A stretch of DNA of 64,000 bases from contig DXEN01000054.1 of the NCBI GenBank assembly GCA_019114945.1, positions 61,386 through 125,385 on the forward strand. Reading direction: 5' to 3'. The notes beneath the pieces are model-generated. The model was not told the origin of the DNA, made no database searches, and was given only the letters and a program-made list of their open reading frames with translations. Position numbers and translations under genes: made by a program. Shown here in pieces: positions 3,841 to 55,209 of the stretch; the first letter of the stretch is position 1, and every line of letters starts with the position of its first letter. The DNA is from Candidatus Parabacteroides intestinigallinarum. GTDB taxonomy: Bacteria > Bacteroidota > Bacteroidia > Bacteroidales > Tannerellaceae.

Positions 3841-5428
3841 CGGGATGCGTGAAGGCGAGATATTCCGCGTGCAGGTAAAGCCGCTCCGCCTTCCGCCCAT
3901 ACAACGCGTCGCCAACGATCGGGCAACCCAATCCGAGCGGATGGGCGGCGTGCACGCGCAGTTGGTGGGTGCGCCCGGTACGCGGGAAAAAGGCGACACG
4001 CATTGTCCCGCCGAGGCGCTCCAACACGGCGTATTCCGTGATGGCGGGCTTGCCGTGCTCCTCGCTCACGAGCTGCCGCGGGCGATCCAAGGGGTCGGGG
4101 CATAGCGGCAAGTCGATCGTGCCCGCGTCCCGCGGGACATCCCCGTCCAAAAGGGCGACGTATCTTTTCCCGACGGTCCGATGCTTGAACTGCGCCTGTA
4201 GGTTCTGGTGCGCCTCCTTCGTCTTGGCGGCGAGAAGAATCCCCGACGTATCCATATCCAAACGATGCGCGAGCAGCGGACCGGTCGCCTCCGGATAAAT
4301 CCGGCGCAATTGCCGGTAAACGGAATCGGCGTCGCTTTTCCCCGGCACGGAAAGCATCCCGGCGGGCTTATCGACCGCCACAATGTACGCATCCTCGTAT
4401 AGGATGCGCAGGCTGCCCACCTCTGGGGCGCATGTCTCGGGTGCGGGCGGCGTCTCTAGGCGCAATCCCCGCAACATGTGGCGCAGGATAGGCTCACATT
4501 TTCCCTTGCACGCCGGGTAATAATAGCCGTGGCGACGCACCTCGGCCACGGGCGAGTCGCCCCACCAGAATTCCGCCATCGCGAGCGGCTCCAAGCGTTT
4601 TCGGTAGGCGTATTGCAGCAGCTTCGGCGCCGCACACTCGCCGGCTCCGGCCGGAGGAACGCCGCTGGCGGTATCCGCAAATAACTCGTGCAGGTCTTTC
4701 GCCTCGCCACAGGCGTTCAGCATGCGGAACTGGCCGAAGAGCCAGTCTTGTAACGCCGCCGAGCGTCGTTTACGCTCCTGCCGCATCCGCTCGATGACCA
4801 CATCGAGGCGATCGACCTCCGCCTGCCTCTGTTCGACCTCCGCCCGCATGGCTCGTTCCAATCGTTTGATTTCCGCTTTCTGGTACTGGCTCTCTCGGAT
4901 AAGAGCAGCCGCTTCCGACTCGCTCAGCGGACTTTGGCGGCGGAGGTCGCGTGCCGCTTTTGCGGTTTTATACGCCTCTTTCGCCTCGGAGATCCGTTGC
5001 CGTGCGTAAGCGGTAGCTTCCTCCAGCTTTTTCCGAGCCTCGAAGTAAACGGGTGCGGTTTGTAATCGTCGTATCTCGTCATTCATCGCGGAGATGTTTC
5101 GTTCCTCCTGGCGGAAATAGCACTCCGGTGCGGAGAAATCGAAAACCGGTGGCACGAAAAAGGGTTGTGTGCTCCGTCCTGCCAAGTTGCCGGAGAATGC
5201 GGCCAGGTAACCGAGCGCACCAGCGACGTCACGAACCACCAACACCCCGAACATCTTACCGGCACGCAGTTCTTCCGCCCATTCCTCCTGTTTCGAAAGA
5301 AACTCCTGCGTCTCTTCTGCCGCAATGACGCACAGCGGATGCGGTGTATAATGAAAAGGATTGGTGAAACGCCCCGGTAAGGGGATATCCGCTACCGGGT
5401 GCGTGAACGTATGAAACTTGTCTTCCAT
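3797..5428 (-). CDS. RluA family pseudouridine synthase with N-terminal extension
   Basis: HRLDMDTSGILLAAKT, GRTHQLRVHAAHPLGLGCPIVGDALYG; start adjusted to MEDKFH. Confidence 0.88.
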   Translation of the reverse strand: MEDKFHTFTHPVADIPLPGRFTNPFHYTPHPLCVIAAEETQEFLSKQEEWAEELRAGKMFGVLVVRDVAGALGYLAAFSGNLAGRSTQPFFVPPVFDFSAPECYFRQEERNISAMNDEIRRLQTAPVYFEARKKLEEATAYARQRISEAKEAYKTAKAARDLRRQSPLSESEAAALIRESQYQKAEIKRLERAMRAEVEQRQAEVDRLDVVIERMRQERKRRSAALQDWLFGQFRMLNACGEAKDLHELFADTASGVPPAGAGECAAPKLLQYAYRKRLEPLAMAEFWWGDSPVAEVRRHGYYYPACKGKCEPILRHMLRGLRLETPPAPETCAPEVGSLRILYEDAYIVAVDKPAGMLSVPGKSDADSVYRQLRRIYPEATGPLLAHRLDMDTSGILLAAKTKEAHQNLQAQFKHRTVGKRYVALLDGDVPRDAGTIDLPLCPDPLDRPRQLVSEEHGKPAITEYAVLERLGGTMRVAFFPRTGRTHQLRVHAAHPLGLGCPIVGDALYGRKAERLYLHAEYLAFTHPVTRERIELRSEAPF

Positions 5429-6978
5429 CAGTGGTTGATTAATCGGGCATACATATAAACGGCCGGCGCCGCGGTCTTCCCCTCGTGGTACAATCCCGGC
5501 CGGGAGACCCGATCCCATTGTACCAACGCACGGGCCTCATCGGCGGAGAGCGTATCGGTAGAGAGTGCGCTCCAGCATTCCCCGTCGCGGCTCCACGCAA
5601 ACGAGACGCACGTGCCTTCCTCCACCTCCATCCGCAAATAGAGCGGAGAGGCAGGCAGCGGAAGGTCCGCCAACATGCGTTCTTTCCCGTCCATAAGGCA
5701 TTTGAGCATCAAGCGGTCGCCTGCACAGCCCAAGGTAATGAGATTACGTGCGTCGCCATACAAGGCGATGCCTTTCCAAGCGTCATTTTGGTTGACCACC
5801 GCCGTCTCGAACGTATAACGCTCGGCGGCGGGTCGCAGGCAAAGCGCCGTGCCGCTGGAAACGCCCTGCTTAGGCATCCCCGCGAGCGTCAGCCTACCGT
5901 TGCGTACACTGGCTTGTATATCCGCGAACGTATAGTTCCAGCTCCAATCATTACGCAGCCGGTCCGCGGAGAAATCGTCATAAAAGTCGGCGAGCGGTCG
6001 TTGCGCCGTCTCGGCGAAGGGAACAGGCTGCGTACGTACGGCATACTCGCCGGTCACGAAGTGAGGCCACCCATCGTCGCCCATTCGTATCTCCTGCAAA
6101 AACGGCTGCCTTCCCTGATAAAATCCATTCCCCGGCAAATAAGCGTGGCATAAGTAATACATTCGTCCGTCCGGTGCGGTGGCGATGGTGCCATGCCCAA
6201 TCGAAAGCACCTCCTTGCTGCCGTGCAGGATGGGATTTCCAGCATACTTCTCGTACGGTCCGTCGATGTTCTTAGAACGGGCCACGGAAACAGCATAATC
6301 GCTACGAGGTCCGCAGCAACCCCCTTCGGAATAAATCAAGTAATAATAGTCGCCGTGCTTAAACCAATGTTGTCCCTCCATACCAACGCGATCGTCGTCG
6401 CGCAGCAGATGGAACGGCTCTCCCTCCAGTCGCAGTCCGTCATCTGATAACTGGCACGCCAACAGCTCTATAGGGCGGTTATCCAATCCATAAGCCTTCC
6501 AGCTAATGTATAATTCGCCCTTGTCCTCCAAGACGAACGCGTCGATCGCCTCCTTGCCGAACTCGACCACCGGTCCGTAGTCCTTGAACTTGCTGGTAGG
6601 CGAGTCCGCCACGGCTACCCCGATACACGAAATGTTGTCCGACCGCTTGCGTGCGGTGTAATACACGTACGTTCTCCCGTCGTGGTGGAACCATTCCGGC
6701 GCCCAGAAGGAAGACAGGGTCCAATCCGGTTTCTGGTCAAATATATGCCCTATTTGCCGCCAATTGACCAGGTCCGTGGAAGTAAAAATCGGATAATGCG
6801 GCGCCCATTCCGAGGAAGTTCCCGTCGCATAGTAAGTTTCTCCTATCCGAAGGATGGAAGGGTCGGGTACATCTCCGTGAATCACCGGATTCGTGAAATA
6901 AGCGTTTTGCTGCGACCAGCCGGCTATCGCGCAGCTCGCATAGAAAAGTAAAGAAAGAAATGTTCGTGTTTGTCTCAT
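5428..6978 (-). CDS. Glycoside hydrolase family 43 protein
   Basis: Signal peptide; NPVIHGDVPDPSILRIGETYYATGTS; FWAPEWFHHDGRTYVYYTA; TGATG stop/start overlap with the downstream gene. Confidence 0.85.
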   Translation of the reverse strand: MRQTRTFLSLLFYASCAIAGWSQQNAYFTNPVIHGDVPDPSILRIGETYYATGTSSEWAPHYPIFTSTDLVNWRQIGHIFDQKPDWTLSSFWAPEWFHHDGRTYVYYTARKRSDNISCIGVAVADSPTSKFKDYGPVVEFGKEAIDAFVLEDKGELYISWKAYGLDNRPIELLACQLSDDGLRLEGEPFHLLRDDDRVGMEGQHWFKHGDYYYLIYSEGGCCGPRSDYAVSVARSKNIDGPYEKYAGNPILHGSKEVLSIGHGTIATAPDGRMYYLCHAYLPGNGFYQGRQPFLQEIRMGDDGWPHFVTGEYAVRTQPVPFAETAQRPLADFYDDFSADRLRNDWSWNYTFADIQASVRNGRLTLAGMPKQGVSSGTALCLRPAAERYTFETAVVNQNDAWKGIALYGDARNLITLGCAGDRLMLKCLMDGKERMLADLPLPASPLYLRMEVEEGTCVSFAWSRDGECWSALSTDTLSADEARALVQWDRVSRPGLYHEGKTAAPAVYMYARLINH

Positions 6979-14738: not shown

Positions 14739-14767
14739 CCCCGCGTGGGCGCGGAAACACGCGGGGG
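14739..14767 (+). terminator. GC-rich hairpin after the second leuA-like gene
   Basis: CCCCCGCGTG-ggcgcggaa-CACGCGGGGG; no T tract directly after it, T7 only after the adjoining array. Confidence 0.5.
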
Positions 14768-14833
14768 CGGTCCGCGCTACACGCGGGTGTAGGTCCGGCT
14801 ACACGCAGGTGTAGTCCGCGCTACACGCAGGTG
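14757..14833 (+). repeat. 22-nt-period array A (4 cores)
   Basis: ACACGCGGGGG/ACACGCGGGTG/ACACGCAGGTG/ACACGCAGGTG at 14757, 14779, 14801, 14823; 11-nt spacers; ends in T7. Confidence 0.85.
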
Positions 14834-14882
14834 TTTTTTTAGAAGTAAATAGAGTACTAACAAAATAGAAACAGATTAACGT

Positions 14883-16055: not shown

Positions 16056-16083
16056 TAAATCATAAATCATAAATCATAAATCT
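16056..16083. repeat. 7-nt-period array (TAAATCA x4)
   Basis: TAAATCA TAAATCA TAAATCA TAAATCT. Confidence 0.7.
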
Positions 16084-18512: not shown

Positions 18513-18535
18513 AGAGCCTTTTGGACTCAGAATTG

Positions 18536-18598
18536 TCAATCGTCAATCGTCAATCGTCAATTGTCAATTGTCAATCGTCAATTGTCAATTGTCAATTG
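18536..18598. repeat. 7-nt tandem array, 9 units TCAATYG
   Basis: TCAATCG x3, TCAATTG x2, TCAATCG, TCAATTG x3. Confidence 0.85.
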
Positions 18599-19036: not shown

Positions 19037-19146
19037 TTTGAAATCCCTCCCAATTCCCTTCGAAAGGGATTTCATTTTCTTTCGGAAGAAATTTCATTTT
19101 CCTTCGGAAGAAAATAAATTTTCCCTCGAAGATATTTTCGGCCTTC
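19037..19146 (+). repeat. 22-nt-period array F (5 units)
   Basis: Units start at 19037, 19059, 19081, 19103, 19125: TTTGAAATCCCTCCCAATTCCC / TTCGAAAGGGATTTCATTTTCT / TTCGGAAGAAATTTCATTTTCC / TTCGGAAGAAAATAAATTTTCC / CTCGAAGATATTTTCGGCCTTC. Confidence 0.75.
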
Positions 19147-28656: not shown

Positions 28657-28691
28657 ATTTATGATTTATAATTTGTGATTTATGATTTATG
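28657..28691. repeat. 7-nt-period array (5 units) upstream of engB
   Basis: ATTTATG ATTTATA ATTTGTG ATTTATG ATTTATG. Confidence 0.7.
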
Positions 28692-38698: not shown

Positions 38699-38752
38699 AT
38701 CGCTATATCGTTTTTACACTATTATTTCACTCTTCGTCTCGCGAAGATACAC

Positions 38753-38787
38753 AATTACGAGTTATGAATTACGAGTTACCAATTACG
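38753..38787. repeat. 7-nt-period array (5 units)
   Basis: AATTACG AGTTATG AATTACG AGTTACC AATTACG. Confidence 0.7.
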
Positions 38788-38817
38788 ATTTTTAGTCTTA
38801 GCCACTTTAACGGGAAA

Positions 38818-38897
38818 GACACATACGTGCGCGGGCAATTTAACATACGTGCGTGGGCAAAGACACGTACGTGCGTTGACCGGAGAAGATAGGTGCC
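38818..38897 (+). repeat. 22-nt-period array C (left arm of 80-bp inverted pair)
   Basis: GACACATACGTGCG…ACATACGTGCG…ACGTACGTGCG…AGATAGGTGCC with 11-nt spacers. Confidence 0.85.
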
Positions 38898-38946
38898 TAT
38901 AACCAACCCTATTTGTGTCATAGCTTCAATATTTAAAATGATATAC

Positions 38947-39066
38947 CTATCAGACCCGTGGCTTGCGCCTGCCTTGATGAGGCATGATAATAAAAAGTGC
39001 TCGGTTCGCGGGATTGGTGATGAAAATCGCTCTATATTTGTAGAATAACCGGAAAAAGGGCTTTTT
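38947..39066 (+). repeat. ~119-bp dispersed repeat, copy 1
   Basis: CTATCAGACCCGTGGCTTGCGCCTGCCTTGATGAGGCATGATAATAAAAAGTGCTC…TATATTTGTAGAATAACCGGAAAAAGG; near-identical to the reverse complement of 55091-55209. Confidence 0.9.
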
Positions 39067-39074
39067 TATTATTT

Positions 39075-39563
39075 ATGAGAGGTATGGAAAGGAAGTATCA
39101 AATTTGTTTCGTGTGCTCGGGCAACGCCTGCCGCTCGCCGTTCGCCGAGTGCGTGATGCGTGCGTTGCTGTCGCGGGCGGGCTTGATGGGAATTGAGGTT
39201 AGTTCGGCGGGTACGATTGAGTGGGGCAGGAATCCAAGGGATCCGATGATGACGAGGATTGCCAAGGAGATGGGTTACGAGTTGACGGGCGAGACGACTT
39301 GCGTGACCCGCGAATCGCTTTGGGAGGCTGATAGCATAGTCGTTTTCAGCCGGCACCACCGGGATGCCGTCACTCGTGTGTTGGATTATGCCCATTGGAA
39401 TCGGATTATTTTGTTTAGCCAGCTCGCTTTCGGCACCGACGAGGAGATAGAGGACCCGAATTACCAGACCGAGGCTGTCTATCGCCGCGTCGCCTCGCGG
39501 ATTGAGGACGGTTGCCGGTGGCTTGTCGATTGTTGGAGGCGATGCCCGCCTCCTATCCGATGA
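39075..39563 (+). CDS. Low-molecular-weight protein-tyrosine-phosphatase family
   Basis: CFVCSGNACRSPFAECVMR (CX5RS) and late EDPNY; alternative start MERKYQ at 39084. Confidence 0.9.
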   Translation: MRGMERKYQICFVCSGNACRSPFAECVMRALLSRAGLMGIEVSSAGTIEWGRNPRDPMMTRIAKEMGYELTGETTCVTRESLWEADSIVVFSRHHRDAVTRVLDYAHWNRIILFSQLAFGTDEEIEDPNYQTEAVYRRVASRIEDGCRWLVDCWRRCPPPIR

Positions 39564-39581
39564 TTAGGGGAATAGGAGGGG

Positions 39582-39661
39582 GGCACCTATGTTCTCCGGA
39601 TCGCGCACGTAGGTGAAATCGCTAACGCACCTATGTGAGTTTGCCAACGCACCTATGTGTC
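39582..39661 (-). repeat. 22-nt-period array D (right arm of 80-bp inverted pair)
   Basis: Reverse complement GACACATAGGTGCG…ACATAGGTGCG…ACCTACGTGCG…ACATAGGTGCC aligns gaplessly to array C (61/80 by hand count). Confidence 0.85.
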
Positions 39662-39662
39662 T

Positions 39663-40025
39663 TTAATAGTACACATAATAGTCGACCTTGATATCGTTCT
39701 CCACGAAGAAATGGGAAATGGCGAAGTCGGCGACGTATTTGTCCTTTCGGAAGCGTCTGTACATTTTGTAGATCAGCTCCTTTCCGCTTCTCGCTTTCAT
39801 AAGTGTCATCAGTTTTTGGGTATTTGCCTCGTCGAGGTCCCAATTCATTTCCACACGACCGTCTCGCGATCGCTCGAAATCCTCCTCGGCGCCCCAATTG
39901 ATTTTTTGCATATCCAATTTCTTGTGGCGATAAGAGAGTATGATGAGGGTTCCCACTTTTTTGGGAGGATCCTCCGCCGCGTCGTTCCAAAGCAACGCTT
40001 GGTAAATCATCTTGTCTTTGTCCAT
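39663..40025 (-). CDS. Hypothetical protein
   Basis: 120 aa ORF without recognised domain; only long ORF with the strand of its neighbours. Confidence 0.55.
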   Translation of the reverse strand: MDKDKMIYQALLWNDAAEDPPKKVGTLIILSYRHKKLDMQKINWGAEEDFERSRDGRVEMNWDLDEANTQKLMTLMKARSGKELIYKMYRRFRKDKYVADFAISHFFVENDIKVDYYVYY

Positions 40026-54525: not shown

Positions 54526-55077
54526 TTACCCCGCGGACTCCCCATTCAACAAATCCCGCACCTCCATCAAGGCGAATCCCAGCAGGTTCTCTCCTTCCCA
54601 AAGCCGTGGAAAACAGACGTCCTTATCGTCCTTGCTCATTCCAATCCCCCAAATCGTATCATAAGGGCTCGCCTCTACGAGGACCTTATCGCCCGTCCGG
54701 CAAAGATAGCTCGACAAATGCGGATTCTGCGAGAACTTAGCGTAATTCCCCTCCACCACGATCTGGAATTTATGCCGTCCCCAAGTCGCGTCGTCATAGC
54801 CTTGTATCAAACGGCCGATCTTCTTCATCTTCATCGGATCCGTCGTTTCCAAGATTTGGCGATAAGCCTCCCTATCCCCGAAAAGCAACGCCTTGCGAGC
54901 CATCATGTACTGCTCGGCGCAACAATAAGAAACCCCATCCACGAAAAAATAACACGTATACCACTGGCTGAGACAAGCGTCGGACACGTTTCCGCCTTTC
55001 TCCGTATGCCCCCAAAAGAAAAGAAACCGGGGAGCATACATCCGCATTACGCTATCAATCGTATATTTCCGTTCCAT
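54526..55077 (-). CDS. NADAR family protein
   Basis: FFWGHTEKGG; YCCAEQYMMARKALLFGD; GYDDATWGRHKFQIVVEGNYAKF; VEASPYDTIWGIG. Confidence 0.9.
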   Translation of the reverse strand: MERKYTIDSVMRMYAPRFLFFWGHTEKGGNVSDACLSQWYTCYFFVDGVSYCCAEQYMMARKALLFGDREAYRQILETTDPMKMKKIGRLIQGYDDATWGRHKFQIVVEGNYAKFSQNPHLSSYLCRTGDKVLVEASPYDTIWGIGMSKDDKDVCFPRLWEGENLLGFALMEVRDLLNGESAG

Positions 55078-55090
55078 AAGAAACCTTTCT

Positions 55091-55209
55091 AAAAATCCTT
55101 TTTCCGATTATTCCACAAATATAGAGCGATTTTCATCACCAATCCCGCGATCTGAGCACTTTTTATCATCATGCCTCATCAAGGCAGGCGCAAGCCGCGG
55201 GTCTGATAG
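55091..55209 (-). repeat. ~119-bp dispersed repeat, copy 2 (inverted relative to copy 1)
   Basis: Reverse complement CTATCAGACCCGCGGCTTGCGCCTGCCTTGATGAGGCATGATGATAAAAAGTGCTC…TATATTTGTGGAATAATCGGAAAAAGG. Confidence 0.9.

Follow-up and report, generated by a model that had tools for sequence, protein, structure and literature searches.

The REP/BIME elements of enterobacteria are mosaics of palindromic units, with hairpins of ∼35 nt, that are scattered through intergenic DNA, mainly at 3′ ends, and occur in both orientations. Within the Bacteroidales, the BrickBuilt element of Porphyromonas gingivalis has been described as a minisatellite/MITE with a 23-nt unit (AGAYCATARTATCCTCTCRTRTG), a leader, a tail, as many as 18 repeats in a single copy and IS5-like terminal inverted repeats; it is present in ∼19 copies, and 22-nt direct repeats have been noted as well in P. 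gingivalis W83 (PMC4596501). Heptamer intergenic direct repeats (e.g. TAACTGA) are found in cyanobacteria, Beggiatoaceae and some Bacteroidetes (PMC4679880).

Here we analyzed a 64 000-nt stretch of DNA from Candidatus Parabacteroides intestinigallinarum (in the following called the window) together with its source genome, a 2.98-Mb draft assembly that represents one genome of the species. The window contains members of an intergenic family of palindromic arrays, for which the 23-nt BrickBuilt is the nearest described element in the literature that we searched (PMC4596501). Both occur in Bacteroidales as dispersed intergenic tandem arrays, both appear to be near species-specific, and in both the unit spans roughly two helical turns and is composed of a conserved and a variable part. 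However, the BrickBuilt unit AGAYCATARTATCCTCTCRTRTG is unrelated to the array consensus, which is NNNNNNACRTASGTGCGTTGGC (22 nt). BrickBuilt as an element is also longer, whereas the Parabacteroides arrays comprise only 2–6 units in at least 56 copies. Terminal inverted repeats and target duplications of the BrickBuilt type were not found in the flanks of 56 arrays. Like REP/BIME, the arrays contain palindromic units in both orientations that are dispersed and located mostly at the 3′ ends of genes, but they are built as a 22-nt lattice of 8–10-nt palindromes. A Y1/REP transposase (PF01797) is absent from the source genome while 5 of 14 control genomes were positive, and by this absence a RAYT/REP origin was rejected. 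The heptamer repeats resemble the arrays in being short intergenic tandem arrays of a preferred unit length, and heptads also occur in the source genome, but their unit has 7 nt instead of 22 and gives a distinct autocorrelation peak. Other 22-nt arrays in Bacteroidetes or Parabacteroides were not found in the literature searched, most subscription papers lying outside its scope, and the novelty of the arrays is therefore provisional.

Two inverted arrays on either side of a phosphatase gene

The locus consists of a low-molecular-weight protein-tyrosine phosphatase (LMW-PTP) gene at 39075–39563 (plus strand) and of two arrays, array C at 38815–38902 (plus strand) and array D at 39577–39664 (minus strand), each with four 22-nt units as delimited by repeat search, TRF and the core lattice. 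TRF itself reported 22-nt tandem arrays at 38815–38876 and 39604–39659, and the palindrome ACNTANGT starts at 38821, 38843 and 38865 in C and at 39585, 39607, 39629 and 39651 in D, in steps of exactly 22, so that the period given in the initial annotation holds for both. Array C is extended by one further core at 38887 carrying one mismatch; its cores are thus ACATACGT (38821), ACATACGT (38843), ACGTACGT (38865) and AGATAGGT (38887). The cores of D, read on the minus strand, are ACATAGGT (39651), ACATAGGT (39629), ACCTACGT (39607) and ACATAGGT (39585). By repeat search we obtained inverted arms at 38815–38897 and 39582–39664, which are 684 nt apart and pair without gaps over 83 nt with 77% complementarity (64/83); the annotation had given 61 of 80, and its inverted pair is therefore confirmed at slightly greater length.

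In a whole-genome search the likeness of C and D was far above chance (E = 6e-11), because both arms are members of one dispersed family. In the same search 22 other places outscored D as matches to C, and in gapless identity to C, D is equalled or surpassed by eight other arrays (73/83 for the best, 64/83 for D). When the source genome was searched with the C/D locus, ∼40 arrays on many contigs were matched. Single ACNTANGT palindromes are not enriched in the window outside C and D (5 found, ∼6 expected). Array D fills most of a 99-nt gap between two convergent genes, and beside array C there is a heptad (7/14-nt) array of the AATTACG type (38752–38788, plus strand), which belongs to a separate class of intergenic repeats.

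Copy number and anatomy of the arrays

We gathered the arrays of the source genome by similarity and pattern searches and from sequence stretches and catalogued at least 56 of them, a number that is a lower bound; block-shuffled sequence yielded none. A search for two cores separated by any gap from 0 to 30 nt returned 75 places, at each of which the gap was exactly 11 nt, and no place in the reversed control. A module typically measures ∼90–110 bp and usually contains 4–5 palindromes ACNTANGT on an exact 22-bp lattice, each 22-nt unit consisting of a variable hexamer followed by ACNTANGTGCGTTGGC. By following the lattice outwards we counted 246 cores over 56 arrays, 222 of them perfect. Four cores were observed in 31 arrays and five in 18. 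Perfect cores beyond the array ends were found in 30 cases at +22 or −22 and in no case at the other 60 offsets tested. The asymmetric flank of the unit flips its orientation in ∼20 arrays, with the palindrome register unchanged.

The units are conserved very unevenly. Across 77 inner units, seven positions of ACnTAnGTG (A, C, T, A, G, T and G) carry no substitution; variation amounts to 27–30% at the two symmetric n positions and to 12–22% in the trailing TGGC. The initial annotation had seen identity concentrated in the cores, which is correct and true genome-wide, and it had proposed that core sequence and spacing look selected; the seven core positions without substitution and the uniform 11-nt gap of all 75 core pairs point the same way. 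The two n positions hold complementary bases less often than expected (35 observed, 58 expected), which fits recognition by a protein better than hairpin pairing. From these comparisons the array family is almost certainly a dispersed intergenic repeat of one Parabacteroides species. A search of the window from 30 to 60 kb against Rfam gave no match.

Several 22-nt arrays elsewhere in the genome directly precede AATTGAC heptads and a CCCCTCTTGAGAGGGG palindrome; the combination looks as though it had been copied as one. In addition, three arrays at contig starts (L044, L049 and L050) are located within 250 nt of a draft contig end. Composite repeats at the arrays may have caused wrong contig breaks or joins.

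Position of the arrays relative to genes

Of the 56 arrays, 55 are located outside predicted genes and one overlaps a weak gene prediction. The median distance to a gene 3′ end is 21 nt, compared to 164 nt for a 5′ end (P = 1.5e-7); individual distances are approximate because genes were called with a simple hexamer-based caller. Arrays are enriched in convergent gaps (P = 0.013) and depleted in divergent gaps (P = 0.03), and in many convergent gaps, including that of array D, the array makes up nearly the entire gap. A crude scan for intrinsic terminators did not discriminate between convergent gaps with and without arrays (5/18 and 6/26).

At two sites the arrangement was compared with that in relatives. 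The convergent gap between rsgA and an HD-domain gene measures 109 nt in the source genome and is filled by an array, whereas of 21 relatives that share this neighbour 19 have a gap of −4 to 34 nt; in the other two it contains 62 nt of heptad repeats (L261) and 829 nt, respectively. On the 3′ side of serS the source genome carries a 5-core array, where most relatives have a hairpin and T-run sequence. Thus, the arrays appear to arise as whole modules at gene ends. In two relatives (L226 and L277) we observed inverted CACGGATTACACGGATT-type repeat pairs just past the stop codon after serS and rsgA, which are perhaps another class of 3′-end repeats.

Distribution of 22- and 23-nt arrays

We searched 39 genomes of the genus, 125 of the family, 118 of the order and 60 of the phylum for the core pattern and found it in the source genome alone, barring one uncultured Parabacteroides (G033, CASEGC010000013.1), which also gave the sole match when the GTDB contig collection was scanned. 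In G033 only the last 255 bp of the contig resemble the source genome (98.4% identity) and the rest is unlike it. Since the likeness is confined to this contig end, the match is probably an assembly chimera rather than a second carrier. The G033 contig breaks beside an array. IMG/VR contained no match to the core pattern, and by this absence a phage origin of the arrays was rejected. Judged by these scans, the ACNTANGT family is near species-specific.

The window contains further arrays with the same unit length. An array at 19057–19137 (plus strand) has the same architecture and another sequence, with the core TTTCCTTCGAAGGAAA; in this second family, 17 of 18 core spacings up to 40 nt equal 22, arrays have 2–4 cores, and members are present in 21 of the 39 genomes of the genus. 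A third 22-nt array, intergenic and of unrelated sequence, lies at 14757–14834 (plus strand). For an alignment-free view we calculated the autocorrelation of intergenic DNA in the source genome, genus relatives, other genera of the family and 23 stretches of other Bacteroidales families. The source genome shows peaks at 7, 14, 21, 22, 44 and 66 nt. The genus relatives, the other genera of the family and the stretches of other Bacteroidales families peak at these lags too, with 22 and 23 in relatives. Values elsewhere are mostly near background, with a few extra peaks in the sets of other genera and other Bacteroidales families. The 22/23 peak is weak in other orders of the same class, and none was seen in other classes of the phylum or in E. 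coli. Samples comprised at most ∼20 kb per genome (100 kb for E. coli), and because of these small samples the array rates across genomes are rough. The sequences of the 22/23-nt arrays vary between genomes, and their bias towards 3′ ends is weaker than that of the family described here (84 versus 190 nt, P = 0.04). Overall, 22/23-nt intergenic arrays of unrelated sequence recur across the sampled Bacteroidales and not in E. coli. Palindromicity as a universal property of 22-nt arrays was rejected, as it is modest only (13 of 57 significant, versus 11% of control 22-mers). Unrelated 22/23-nt arrays upstream of DPP4 in 6 of 29 relatives look close to the base rate, and we make no claim on them.

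Heptad arrays form a second periodic class of intergenic DNA with a separate autocorrelation peak; in the window they occur at 18531–18598, 16056–16082, 28657–28691 and 38752–38788 and are of AATTGTC, TAAATCA, ATTTATG and AATTACG types. In L066 a 42-nt tandem array of 8.7 copies with 92% matches was called intergenic at 5419–5782.

Possible function and origin of the arrays

The DNA itself shows that the arrays are dispersed, keep a strict lattice and an invariant core, lie preferentially near the 3′ ends of genes and occupy a site left empty in relatives. We propose that the palindromes are dyad sites for a putative dimeric DNA-binding protein, whose dimers would dock at intervals of two turns along the same helix face. 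The bound array would then form an orientation-insensitive boundary at gene 3′ ends, either by halting transcription between adjacent genes, as a stop or roadblock, or as a supercoil or nucleoid anchor. That the palindromes are phased sites bound by a protein is the somewhat favoured reading of the lattice and the invariant cores, while a role at 3′ boundaries is more tentative and falls a little short of an even chance: relatives manage without an array at rsgA, and the 3′-end bias may reflect tolerance and not function. Taken as a whole, the statement that combines a dispersed family, protein-bound phased sites and a 3′-boundary role is in our judgement evenly poised.

Alternatively, the family could be a selfish or neutral, MITE-like minisatellite that spreads as a module, which we consider possible though doubtful. 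Modules would then survive mainly at gene 3′ ends since insertion elsewhere is harmful, and the 22-nt unit would reflect the mode of copying rather than binding. The near species-specific burst and the gain of a whole module at the rsgA site agree with such spreading, purifying selection by itself would produce the position bias, and BrickBuilt has been interpreted as a MITE (PMC4596501). However, simple copy decay predicts neither an invariant core between drifting spacers nor a lattice that is kept through orientation flips, and terminal inverted repeats, target duplications or a Y1/REP transposase were not recognized in the genome. The arrays might also work at the RNA level as 3′ elements, with transcripts of either strand forming hairpins from the palindromes and so terminating or protecting the mRNA. 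The RNA folds are stronger than those of shuffled sequences (z about −3.2 on one strand and −3.6 on the other), the arrays sit just past stop codons, and the serS array lies where most relatives have a hairpin and T-run. Tandem palindromes fold well trivially, however, the free core positions are complementary less often than expected, and between tandem genes there is no clear strand preference (15 arrays on the same strand, 9 on the opposite), so that we regard an RNA-level element as quite unlikely.

Far less probable still is a mobile cassette, as which the initial annotation had read the gene and its arms, with C and D serving gene 39075–39563 as inverted termini for one recombinase or transposase. 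The arms are indeed alike and inverted, the phosphatase gene is accessory and does not neighbour DPP4 in the relatives that were examined, and the ends of Mu and Tn7 likewise carry 22-bp transposase sites; unlike the cores described here, the MuA and TnsB sites are not known to be palindromic. Yet the arms are only two of at least 56 dispersed arrays, and 54 or more sites lie outside any such pair and without the gene. From the placement of the arrays, 0.6–0.8 pairs closer than ∼1 kb are expected (0.3–0.4 inverted) and one is seen; therefore the inverted enclosure of the phosphatase needs no special explanation, and among the 56 arrays no excess of inverted pairing over chance was found. Nor are C and D one another's closest relatives, and the DNA between them contains no recombinase gene. 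Target duplications, which the annotation had suggested might be looked for outside the arms, do not flank the arrays: over all 56 the longest common flank words amount to 3.91 against 4.04 in the null, and neither a common terminus nor terminal inverted repeats were evident in the flanks. Pair statistics, similarity ranks and the absence of target duplications thus led us to reject cassette or transposon ends. Arrays C and D are best seen as two independently placed members of a family whose dispersed nature is hardly in doubt, and their flanking of the phosphatase gene is a coincidence.

Returning to protein-bound phased sites, a broader and rather unlikely generalization is that Bacteroidales share intergenic boundary elements set by geometry rather than sequence, i.e. 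a few palindromic sites phased at 22–23 bp (two helical turns) with lineage-specific cores and a putative fast-evolving DNA-binding protein. If geometry is what is kept, the arrays would point to an undescribed chromosome-organising or 3′-end system in dominant gut bacteria, in which the specificity of the binding protein is replaced species by species. If the arrays are selfish, they would offer a clean case of fixed unit length with sequence turnover. Because the lattice is strictly 22 nt, the question can be put to a direct test by altering nothing but the spacing.

The phosphatase gene

The annotation was right about the gene between the arms. ORF 39075–39563 encodes an intact LMW-PTP of 162 aa (PF01451, E = 1.2e-24, profile positions 1–143 of 144), and its CxxxxCR(S/T) loop reads CSGNACRS. 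We found no ortholog of the window copy in 38 other Parabacteroides genomes, and the relatives examined lack it beside DPP4. The source genome has a second LMW-PTP copy at C37:3477–3926, C37 being the contig that holds the window. The LMW-PTPs of relatives, where found and compared, are 69–84% identical to this second copy and mostly ∼30% identical to the window copy. By these comparisons the gene is accessory and not part of the array element, and its acquisition could not be connected with the arrays.

The LMW-PTP gene has a duplicated promoter/leader region: 38947–39065 and 55091–55209 (minus strand) are identical at 111 of 119 bases. The second copy lies upstream of a NADAR-domain gene (54526–55077, minus strand), and the leader stretch common to both genes contains a TATATTTG box. 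Shared regulation of the LMW-PTP and NADAR-domain genes is possible.
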